A stretch of DNA of 64,000 bases from Oscillatoriaceae cyanobacterium M7585_C2015_266 (GTDB lineage Bacteria > Cyanobacteriota > Cyanobacteriia > Cyanobacteriales > Oscillatoriaceae). The DNA lies in the NCBI GenBank assembly GCA_015295835.1, contig DVEG01000020.1:331709-395708 (forward strand), written 5' to 3'. The stretch's first letter is position 1; every line of letters starts with the position of its first letter. A model generated the notes under the pieces. It searched no databases and was not told the DNA's origin. It saw only the letters and a program-made list of their open reading frames with translations. This document shows, piece after piece, positions 16,796 to 19,468 of this stretch. Position numbers and translations under genes: made by a program.

Positions 16796-19468
16796 ATGTT
16801 GGCTCTCAATTCTTTTACTCTTGAGCACTTATCTCGTCTGCAGCGTCTTGCCACTGCAGCAGGTATCTTAAACTATACTGATTTTTGGAATTATGGCAGC
16901 AATACTCTGCAAGAGCCTGTAGCGGTTGTTAACTTGGGCTATTTGCTGGAAACTCTCGATTCTCCCGATGAGCGCCGTGCTACCCTCCTTGATGCTTGGA
17001 AATATACTACAAAAGTTCTGATAGTTGCCGCCAGAGTTTTAATTAATAATTGTAATAATGGGCAAATTATTGATGCAGATGGGTTTGTTACTCGCCCCAA
17101 TCCTTGTGAAACTTACTTCACTCATGCTAGTTTTAAAGCGTATATTGATGAAATTCTCGGTGTTGATGCTATTCCTGCTGCCATTGGTGTATATTTTGTT
17201 TTTCGCCATGCAATCGATGCCGAAAGTTTTCGTTTTGCTCAGGGGCAATACTCTTCTTGCGAAGTTGCTACGCCAAGGCGCCACAATTCTGATGATATTC
17301 TAATTTATATTGCACTATATCGTCCTAAATTTTTACAATTCCCCCCTCACCTTCAAACTGAAATTATTAATTATTTTGGGAGTTGGGAACGAGCTTATGA
17401 ACTTGCTGAACAACTGCTCTATCAGCTAGAAAAACCAGAAGTGATCGCTCGCTATTGTCAACAAAGTGCCATTGGCAAAAAACTTCCCAAAGCCCTTTAC
17501 GTTCACGTCTCAGCACTCAAACACCTCCACCCCCTGCTTCGCCTATATGAACGTCGCGCTCGTTGTGATTTTGGGCAAATTGATAAAGCTGTAATTGTTA
17601 AATTAAGCATAGAAAAACCAAAAGTTTCTTACTTATTTTACCCTAATTTTGATACCGAACCCCACCCGGTTTTGCAAGCTAGTATACAGATTGATTGGCG
17701 CGCTGGCATAATTAGCTGTCGCACTTATGATAAGTGCGAAAATCCGCCTATTTTACACCGCAAAGATGCTTTCGTCGCCCCCGACTATCCCAATTACGAA
17801 CTTTTTGCCAAACTGACACGCCAAGAGGAAGAATTAGGGCTTTTAAATACCACGCGGCGGATTGGCACGCGCCAGGGATGGCAACAATGTCTAGATTATT
17901 ACGGCGTAGAAATAGAAGGGCATCAAGTCAGGTTGCGTCTTGATGCTTTAGGTAATTGGCTGCCAAAAATAGAACGTCACAAAGCGGCTATTATTCGTAA
18001 CGATTTATCCCGCCCGGTGCGCTTAGCTTTAGAATTTGGTTTATTCACTCCAAATAGTACGTTTTTTGATTACGGTTGTGGTTATGGCGGCGATTTTAAA
18101 CGCATTGGCGAAAAGGGTTATGTAAGCGCTGGTTGGGATCCTTATTATTTTCCTGAAAATCCTTGTATTCCTGCTGATATTGTTAATCTTGGCTATGTGA
18201 TTAATGTTATTGAAGATAAGGAAGAACGCCGAGAAGCTTTGTTGAAGGCTTGGCAACTTACCCGCAAAGTTTTGTTGGTGGCGGCTATGGTGATTATTGA
18301 TAATCCTGGCAATGAGTTATTAGCTTACGGAGATGGGGTAATTACCCGTCGTAATACTTTTCAGAAATATTACGATCAGGAGGAACTAAAATTTTATATC
18401 GAAGAGGTTTTAGGGGTTGAAGCGAGCGCGGCTGGTTTAGGAATTTATTTTGTTTTTCGAGATAAAACTGAAGCGGAAACTTTTCGAGCTTCTCGCTTTC
18501 GTTCGCGCGCAATTACTCCCAAAGTCAAAAAGCCAACCAAAAGCTTTGAAGAGTGTCGAGAATTGTTGATGCCTTTAATGGCATTTGTTAGCGATCGCGG
18601 GCGCTTACCTGTCAAAGGCGAACTTGCTTCTGAACCAGCTATCAAAGCAGAAATCGGCAGTCTTCGCCGCGCTTTTGAGATAATCTTACAAGCAACTGAG
18701 CGCCAAGAATGGGAATCTATTGTGGAAAAACGCCGCCAAGATTTACTTGTTTATTTAGCTCTAGCAAAATTCAATCGTTTTCCCAAATTTAGCACATTAT
18801 CTACAGAAATTAAAAATGATATTAAAAATTTTTTTGGCAGTTACAAGCAAGCCTGTAAGTTAGTAGAAGAAATTCTCTTCAGTTTGGGGGATCTTAGTAT
18901 AATTAGAGAGCGCGCCCGCAACAGCAAAATTGGCTTACTATTACCAACCGCTCTTTGCATTCATATCTCCGCTTTAGAATTACTTGATCCCTTATTAAGA
19001 ATTTATGAAGGTTGCGCCAGCCGTACTATTGGGCGCATGGAAGAAGCGACGATAATAAAAATATACACCAATCAACCCAAAATTGCCTATCTATTTTATC
19101 CTGATTTCGACACCGATCCCCATCCGGCTTTGCACACAAGTATGGAAATTGACTTAAGAAACTTGCATGTCAGTTATCGAGATTTTGAGAACTCTGACGA
19201 TCCGCCCTTATTGCATTGTAAAGATGCCTGTGTAGCTCCCGACTATCCGCTTTATAAGAAATTTGCCCTACTCACATCTCAGGAGAAAAAATGGGGACTT
19301 CTTAACAATTTCCGGGCGATTAAAACTCGCAAAGGTTGGCTGAAGTGTTTGCAAGAGAATTGTGCAGAAATTCGCAACTACCGGGTTTATTGGCGTAAGG
19401 ATGCTGATCCCTACCGTGTTAAATTATTACGAGCTGCTCGGCGACGCAATATTTGCAAGCCAGAATAA
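16796..19468 (+). CDS. Tandem fusion of two DNA-phosphorothioation-associated methyltransferase-like units
   Basis: 890 residues, about twice the usual ~480-500 of this family (TIGR04096-type, recognised by sequence). The second copy (about 392-890) is complete: RHKAAIIRNDLSRP, FDYGCGYGGD (SAM motif I), GWDPYYFPEN, VNLGYVINVIEDKEER, then a C-terminal region with YLFYPDFDTDPHPAL and CVAPDYPLYKKF. The first copy (about 1-385) repeats the same blocks (VNLGYLLETLDSPDER, YLFYPNFDTEPHPVL, FVAPDYPNYELF) but has lost about 25 residues covering SAM motif I, so it should be catalytically inactive. The family occurs beside dnd sulfur-modification genes, yet none lie here. Target and activity are unproven. 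Confidence 0.85.
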   Translation: MLALNSFTLEHLSRLQRLATAAGILNYTDFWNYGSNTLQEPVAVVNLGYLLETLDSPDERRATLLDAWKYTTKVLIVAARVLINNCNNGQIIDADGFVTRPNPCETYFTHASFKAYIDEILGVDAIPAAIGVYFVFRHAIDAESFRFAQGQYSSCEVATPRRHNSDDILIYIALYRPKFLQFPPHLQTEIINYFGSWERAYELAEQLLYQLEKPEVIARYCQQSAIGKKLPKALYVHVSALKHLHPLLRLYERRARCDFGQIDKAVIVKLSIEKPKVSYLFYPNFDTEPHPVLQASIQIDWRAGIISCRTYDKCENPPILHRKDAFVAPDYPNYELFAKLTRQEEELGLLNTTRRIGTRQGWQQCLDYYGVEIEGHQVRLRLDALGNWLPKIERHKAAIIRNDLSRPVRLALEFGLFTPNSTFFDYGCGYGGDFKRIGEKGYVSAGWDPYYFPENPCIPADIVNLGYVINVIEDKEERREALLKAWQLTRKVLLVAAMVIIDNPGNELLAYGDGVITRRNTFQKYYDQEELKFYIEEVLGVEASAAGLGIYFVFRDKTEAETFRASRFRSRAITPKVKKPTKSFEECRELLMPLMAFVSDRGRLPVKGELASEPAIKAEIGSLRRAFEIILQATERQEWESIVEKRRQDLLVYLALAKFNRFPKFSTLSTEIKNDIKNFFGSYKQACKLVEEILFSLGDLSIIRERARNSKIGLLLPTALCIHISALELLDPLLRIYEGCASRTIGRMEEATIIKIYTNQPKIAYLFYPDFDTDPHPALHTSMEIDLRNLHVSYRDFENSDDPPLLHCKDACVAPDYPLYKKFALLTSQEKKWGLLNNFRAIKTRKGWLKCLQENCAEIRNYRVYWRKDADPYRVKLLRAARRRNICKPE

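Follow-up and report, generated by a model that had tools for sequence, protein, structure and literature searches.

A fused two-copy TIGR04096 putative methyltransferase with an eroded first copy in an Oscillatoriaceae cyanobacterium

Organization of the two-copy gene

The window analyzed in this work is the whole stretch of 64,000 nucleotides from Oscillatoriaceae cyanobacterium M7585_C2015_266 (assembly GCA_015295835.1, contig DVEG01000020.1, here C18). At positions 16796–19468 of the forward strand it harbors a gene coding for a protein of 890 amino acids (aa; P0001). This protein contains two matches to TIGR04096 (dnd_rel_methyl), the NCBIfam family of DNA phosphorothioation-associated putative methyltransferases, one after the other in a single open reading frame (ORF) with no internal stop. 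The following features were recognized (S-adenosylmethionine, SAM; "C-module" designates the C-terminal part of the family; profile positions refer to TIGR04096):

16796..19468, + strand: whole gene, two-copy TIGR04096 protein of 890 aa (profile matches, ORF)
16883..16927, + strand: copy 1, residues 30–44, residual strand 1 and junction, with motif I, helix A and strand 2 gone (alignment with three relatives, gaps in 7/7 long-type first copies, model)
16892..17242 (C18:348600-348950), + strand: copy 1, methyltransferase remnant, profile 61–178 (107.8 bits)
17276..17932 (C18:348984-349640), + strand: copy 1, second helical repeat and C-module, profile 254–476 (219.6 bits)
17966..19396 (C18:349674-351104), + strand: copy 2, complete family member, profile 1–478 (692.4 bits)
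18065..18094, + strand: copy 2, SAM motif I FDYGCGYGGD, residues 424–433 (DYGCGxG in 120/120 complete copies)
18131..18148, + strand: copy 2, GWDPYY after strand 2, residues 446–451 (at least 93% conserved in 120 complete copies, gap in 7/7 first copies)
18563..18895, + strand: copy 2, two helical repeats resembling PF18780 HNH_repeat, residues ~590–700 (bounds read from the sequence by eye)
18893..19465, + strand: copy 2, C-module, the stretch modeled alone (AlphaFold2)

The 890-aa product scores 1016.5 bits with the TIGR04096.1 profile, whose curated cut-off is 150, and its two halves searched singly score 329.7 and 669.1 bits, both above that cut-off. In the profile search of the contigs, copy 2 covers the entire profile and copy 1 the two segments listed above only. 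BLASTP aligned copy 1 with copy 2 at 45% identity over 222 columns (E 7e-63) and at 45% over 109 columns (E 2e-29), far beyond chance. The preliminary description of this DNA, made from its letters alone, had the whole family present twice. According to these data, two matches exist and copy 2 is complete, but copy 1 lacks profile positions 1–60 and 179–253. The matching blocks, placed there 390–430 residues apart, were measured at distances of 418 (residues 45 and 463) and 486 (residues 279 and 765), because copy 1 also misses about 70 residues mid-way; copy 1 therefore does not represent the whole family.

No second TIGR04096 gene was found in the 3.98-Mb genome. A sequence artefact was ruled out by the fact that the architecture is common to seven genomes. 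The AlphaFold2 model of the 890-aa product has a mean predicted local distance difference test (pLDDT) of 87.3 and a predicted template modeling score (pTM) of 0.55, and it does not fix the mutual arrangement of the halves. A promoter/terminator scan retrieved 11 promoter-like sites (7.0 ± 2.1 in shuffled sequences), none of them on the + strand before the start, and was not used.

Loss of the SAM site in the first copy

We call "long type" those genes whose first copy retains a methyltransferase piece. The motif DYGCGxG is present in all the 120 complete copies (a set without L066, L067, L094, L095, the duplicates L036, L088 and L089, and matches below 400 bits, in which some genomes are counted from two collections), and GxGxG is found in none of the seven long-type first copies. 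In the multialignment, the positions corresponding to C428, G429, G431, G441, G446, W447, D448, P449, Y450 and Y451 are gaps in each of these seven sequences. The sole GxGxG of the 890-aa product is at residue 427, in copy 2, which keeps the motif listed above; a SAM motif displaced elsewhere in copy 1 was ruled out, since no GxG is found there. These data bear out the loss of motif I from copy 1 that had been read from the sequence at the outset; the profile matches and the motif gaps agree with a catalytic-looking unit fused behind a pseudo-methyltransferase without a SAM site.

In the AlphaFold2 model, copy 2 has a strand (residues 422–425), a helix (432–439) and two further strands (443–447 and 460–466); in copy 1, strand 30–32 is followed directly by strand 42–48. 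Helix A and strand 2 are therefore missing as well. Besides the motif-I segment, copy 1 of the 890-aa gene lost the profile segment 179–253. The family-conserved letters kept by the long-type first copies amount to 191/320 (60%) at positions 61–178, 127/168 (76%) in the repeats and 221/259 (85%) in the C-module.

Distribution of the architectures in the family

The seven long-type genomes are the source genome, Oscillatoria princeps RMCB-10, Oscillatoria sp. PCC 10802, Oscillatoriaceae M33_DOE_052, Laspinema sp. D2d, L. olomoucense D3b and Phormidium pseudopriestleyi FRX01, and the same motif-I segment is gone in all of them. The other six genes share with the 890-aa gene the order of the parts, that is, a methyltransferase piece with this gap, then a C-module, then a complete copy; the middle repeats of copy 1 (178–254) are kept in five of the seven, whereas they are gone in the 890-aa protein and in that of M33_DOE_052. 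The TIGR04096 profile itself corresponds to one copy, to which copy 2 conforms (full profile, motif I, dnd genes in the genome); the 890-aa protein differs in having a SAM-less partial copy in front and in being unlinked from dnd.

The fusion is not unique, as most of the family members seen carry an extra N-terminal copy of the C-module. Among 39 genes chosen by us from a survey of the phylum, two are of the long type (the 890-aa gene and that of genome G229), 25 repeat a portion of the C-terminal part at the N-terminus, 11 are single and one is divergent. The scan of genome contigs gave six long-type genes and 74 with a shorter N-terminal copy among the best 80 of 125 relatives, a set ranked by likeness to the 890-aa query that yields no frequencies. 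Within the family of the source organism (eight genomes), three genes are of the long type, one has a short N-terminal copy, three are single and one is a fragment (from a 66%-complete genome). The N-terminal extra C-module, which occurs also in Proteobacteria, had not been foreseen by the preliminary description. A representative of the common form is SGL_RS00125 (690 aa) of plasmid pSYSM of Synechocystis PCC 6803, which resembles the 890-aa protein in having an N-terminal extra C-module and one complete copy but whose N-terminal copy, unlike that of the 890-aa protein, is without the methyltransferase piece. Overall, the 890-aa protein is a pseudoenzyme–enzyme fusion in a known, uncharacterized family, and belongs to a series of architectures extending across cyanobacteria.

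Some further family members were encountered. One genome (G197) holds both forms, a dndC-linked single gene and an unlinked fused gene (L046, L047). A 284-aa protein (L094:7501-8355) has an N-terminus like the TIGR04096 methyltransferase (49 bits) and a C-terminal part that is HIT-like by eye, and in Arthrobacter sp. StoSoilB13 (L186:7992-9441) a family member is split over two overlapping frames, in a frameshift-like manner.

Association with Dnd phosphorothioation

No dnd genes were found beside the 890-aa gene, as had been noted from the window. The same genome, however, harbors dndC (720 bits), dndD (682 bits) and dndE (133 bits) on another contig (C7), all above the curated cut-offs, together with a DGQHR/DndB-like gene that scores only 17.8 bits with the DndB model (cut-off 328). 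Moreover, dndC, dndD and dndE precede the gene at no more than ~6 kb in five of the seven long-type genomes, and dndC lies ~9 kb away in a sixth, the 890-aa gene being the only one with none; thus, the suggested absence of a dnd link is not supported.

In the survey of 386 genomes of the phylum, TIGR04096 was above the cut-off in 104 and dndC in 94. Both were present in 92, TIGR04096 only in 12, dndC only in two (G233 and G360) and neither in 280 (Fisher p 1e-72); the corresponding counts within the order were 91, 5, 2 and 7 (p 1e-6). These p values are too small, the genomes being related, and nine genomes with sub-cut-off TIGR04096 matches were counted as lacking it. The link with Dnd at the genome level is strong. 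Three of the 12 TIGR04096-only genomes (G011, G060 and G170; L057, L072 and L070) have a dndC-like match of 130–136 bits within ~2.5 kb; these divergent genes perhaps represent another type of phosphorothioation. As for physical linkage, dndC is no more than 10 kb away from 19 of 25 single genes (single and fused forms were told apart by open-frame length, fewer than 580 codons counting as single).

Outside cyanobacteria, a fused form lies beside dndBCDE in a Pseudoalteromonas plasmid record, and in those of Methylobacterium and Azospirillum it immediately follows SspG and SspH. In Falsirhodobacter, SspG was confirmed, and the neighbor of the fused gene has an FtsK domain. On alphaproteobacterial plasmids (L184:8001-9947, L188:7974-10013, L191:7992-10001), the fused TIGR04096 gene was observed directly behind an FtsK-domain gene; both SspG and SspH were confirmed on two of these plasmids, and SspG on the third. 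The pSYSM member of Synechocystis PCC 6803 (L183:8947-11019) has a cysteine desulfurase ~2 kb away, and an HNH endonuclease and a toxin–antitoxin pair nearby. Apart from dnd genes and probable synteny, the clustering of 45 loci revealed no neighbor that is conserved next to unlinked fused genes. The SspH search in the source genome gave one match (212.7 bits, positions 1409–1741 of 1766, in a 659-codon frame); since 8 of 14 control genomes match likewise, this may be a generic ATPase.

According to Jian et al. 2021 (PMC8569181), dnd is enriched in Nostocales, dndFGH is absent in cyanobacteria and dnd clusters occur only in Cyanobacteriales; the available portion of that paper does not mention a methyltransferase. 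In our survey, one genome from another order of the class (G193) has dndC above the cut-off, unlike in that report. A gene table for Rhodococcus (PMC8416521) lists a TIGR04096-named gene directly after dndA–E. That article was the only one found for "TIGR04096", "dnd_rel_methyl" or "phosphorothioation-associated" in the Creative Commons (CC)-licensed literature of PubMed Central (PMC), in which no publication came up on the fusion and nothing was returned on hybrids of phosphorothioate (PT) and 6mA. The methyltransferase passages available from PMC11662687 and PMC8092258 concern the comparison with restriction–modification only. PMC6560206 puts the number of DNA methyltransferases known in Synechocystis PCC 6803 at five, and its available part does not mention pSYSM.

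Fold of the methyltransferase and the C-module

In the model, the stretch matched by class I methyltransferases spans residues 388–557 (top VIA Z 12.7, root-mean-square deviation 3.1, 146 aligned residues, 7bgg). The fold lists are led by small-molecule, tellurite-resistance (TehB) and tRNA (Trm9) methyltransferases, and no DNA methyltransferase is named in the best 50 of 563 Foldseek rows or in the best 50 of 1000 VIA chains retrieved with the 890-aa model. The motif IV [DNS]PP[YFW] of DNA amino-methyltransferases (m6A/m4C) is absent from the 890-aa product and from the first 185 residues of all the 120 complete copies, and the strict PCQ string of DNA cytosine-5 methyltransferases is absent from the 890-aa product; the protein therefore looks unlike a standard DNA base methyltransferase. 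The PDB sequence search gave one row (E 0.13), PADLOC assigned no family to the 890-aa product and PHROGs reached only E 0.11. DNA binding is suggested by the likeness of the repeats to PF18780 HNH_repeat, matched by 15 of 49 members at E 1 or better (best 1.3e-7).

The C-module modeled alone reached a pLDDT of 94.7 and a pTM of 0.87. Its best PDB match has E 0.56 by Foldseek and the best VIA Z is 3.3; with such values, no clear relative of known structure is seen, and a new fold is not proven. Against BFVD, one strong, unnamed row was retrieved (A0A516LL04_1, E 1.5e-6). In addition, a 190-aa ORF of the uncultured jumbo phage LR745208.1 (485 kb) consists of the C-module alone (L182:4977-5549; tblastn E 6e-9, 26% identity) and scores 86 bits with a profile built without the phage sequence; the high score with a profile containing that sequence is circular and was not used. 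The viral contig scan listed 80 pattern stretches, none a relative.

About 0.4 kb downstream in the same phage, a 225-aa ORF (L182:5991-6668) is weakly methyltransferase-like (12.3 bits versus a best of 9.5 in unrelated ORFs of the loci analyzed; hhalign probability 80.5% with the methyltransferase domain) and is a lead only. Further on (L182:8941-9567), there is a match to a phage DNA methyltransferase family.

Selection and ancestry of the copies

The ratio of nonsynonymous to synonymous substitution rates (dN/dS; Nei-Gojobori, 300 bootstraps) was estimated in one Oscillatoria pair and in three Laspinema-type pairs, the latter drawn from the same three sequences and hence not independent. 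In the Laspinema-type pairs, the methyltransferase piece of copy 1 gave 0.27, 0.14 and 0.14 (upper bounds 0.45, 0.22 and 0.22). The methyltransferase of copy 2 gave 0.28 in Oscillatoria and 0.07, 0.07 and 0.08 in the Laspinema-type pairs; the copy 1 C-module gave 0.20 and 0.12, 0.14, 0.16, and the copy 1 repeats 0.47 and 0.26, 0.27, 0.15, respectively. For two of the four pairs, constraint on the C-module of copy 1 does not exceed that on the eroded piece. These ratios indicate that this piece is under purifying selection in one lineage, two to four times weaker than on the live copy.

As for the trees (66, 46, 75 and 47 rows, selected by us), the 46-row tree of whole copies joins the seven long-type first copies in one clade (100/98), with long end branches for those of the 890-aa gene and of L104 (0.75 and 0.85). 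The 75-row tree of C-modules contains a split (97/95) that sets the C-terminal modules (27 from fused genes, 12 from single genes of cyanobacteria) apart from all the N-terminal ones (seven long-type, 20 common-type and seven proteobacterial or phage modules); two actinobacterial single genes fall on the N-terminal side. By parsimony, which is not proof, the motif-I gap shared by the seven genomes would correspond to one event. The trees are compatible both with an old doublet in which the first methyltransferase was lost and with the acquisition of the piece at a later time.

Possible roles of the fusion

We consider it slightly better than an even bet that the 890-aa protein is a Dnd-accessory methyltransferase, in which copy 2 catalyzes and copy 1 is a pseudoenzyme holding a second C-module. 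Copy 2 would consist of a SAM methyltransferase of class I, "putative" in the family's own name, with helical repeats and a C-module behind it. One in-frame loss, common to the seven long-type genomes, would have taken away motif I together with helix A and strand 2, and copy 1 should therefore be unable to bind SAM in the usual way. The remainder of copy 1 may pack as a scaffold presenting the second C-module, and the repeats and the two C-modules may bind DNA, the presumed target, or Dnd proteins. One polypeptide would thus place one active site on a two-part target where the Dnd proteins work.

A live and a SAM-less core in one chain are also found in the tandem protein arginine methyltransferases of the PRMT7 type, which form an internal dimer; they resemble the 890-aa protein in this respect and differ from it in belonging to an unrelated family and in the order of the halves. 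Another PT-linked protein with an eroded methyltransferase domain is DndH, whose DAM domain is catalytically inactive (Rakesh et al. 2024, PMC10853773); that domain is of the adenine-methylase type and is joined to a nuclease and HerA/FtsK, rather than forming a one-family doublet like the 890-aa protein, and the paper mentions neither TIGR04096 nor cyanobacteria.

Several observations weigh against the accessory reading, besides the relatedness of the genomes and the overlap of the Laspinema-type pairs stated above. Twelve of the 104 TIGR04096 genomes have no dndC above the cut-off; 63 of 67 fused genes (four do) and the 890-aa gene do not lie within 10 kb of dndC; the PF18780 match in the 890-aa product reaches only 18.5 bits, below the gathering cut-off of 26, at 188–204 of copy 1; the Oscillatoria pair gives a dN/dS of 0.69 for the copy 1 methyltransferase piece (bootstrap 0.39–1.56), as might also be seen in the absence of constraint; and the tests do not reject a recent local duplication, since forcing first copies to group with the second copies of the same genes has a cost of 4.25 log units for the methyltransferase-repeat part (p 0.26) and gives p 0.17 for the C-modules. 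The Oscillatoria value, together with the further loss of segment 179–253 from the 890-aa gene, the long end branches, the lower retention of conserved residues in the methyltransferase piece (60% against 85% in the C-module) and the common form, which does without the piece altogether (25/39 genes, and 74 of the best 80 loci ranked by likeness), would fit a decaying leftover, perhaps unconstrained in the Oscillatoria lineage, the useful part of copy 1 being its C-module and the protein working like the common form. The low ratios of the three Laspinema-type pairs (0.14–0.27, upper bounds no higher than 0.45), the open frames retained in seven genomes and the good local confidence of the modeled remnant speak against this explanation, which we regard as unlikely.

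The p values just given also bear on the possibility that the long type does not go back to an old doublet and instead derives from the common form, through a later duplication or unequal exchange that added a methyltransferase-repeat stretch at the front. The position of the first copies is not settled by the methyltransferase-repeat part taken by itself, and the presence of N-terminal C-modules also in Proteobacteria suggests that the common form may be older; on the other hand, the long-type first-copy C-modules group with the N-terminal and not with the C-terminal modules, and a single clade with the other N-terminal modules fits no worse than the free tree (p 0.53), yet the grouping with their own second copies is not rejected either. 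We regard this later origin as a real possibility, although short of an even chance. It is distinctly improbable, in our opinion, that the protein is a maintenance or a tRNA/small-molecule methyltransferase sharing genomes with dnd by common descent only: the composition of the fold lists, the lack of the two DNA methyltransferase motifs within the scope given above and the isolated position of the 890-aa gene would agree with it, but family genes adjoin dnd or SspGH in several phyla and dndC occurs in only 2 of the 282 genomes without TIGR04096 above the cut-off. Lastly, and very speculatively, a non-DPPY methyltransferase might set a second mark on or beside phosphorothioate DNA, perhaps methylating the PT sulfur or a neighboring base, with two C-modules of little-known fold, one held by the pseudo-methyltransferase, reading a two-part target; if this were true, the jumbo phage with its free C-module and small methyltransferase-like gene would represent a split version or a counter-measure.

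Significance for cyanobacterial phosphorothioation

TIGR04096, a family named only from its neighbors, is a near-constant companion of dndC in 386 genomes, whether linked to it or not. This suggests that cyanobacterial phosphorothioation probably has a methyltransferase partner outside the usual DndABCDE scheme. The seven long-type genes belong to a series that has two-copy proteins with their first half dead at one end and, at the other, the common form, which has a spare C-module only, so that the role of the pseudo-methyltransferase is testable by domain deletion, and the C-module, which exists also alone in a jumbo phage, represents a clear target for structural and binding work.

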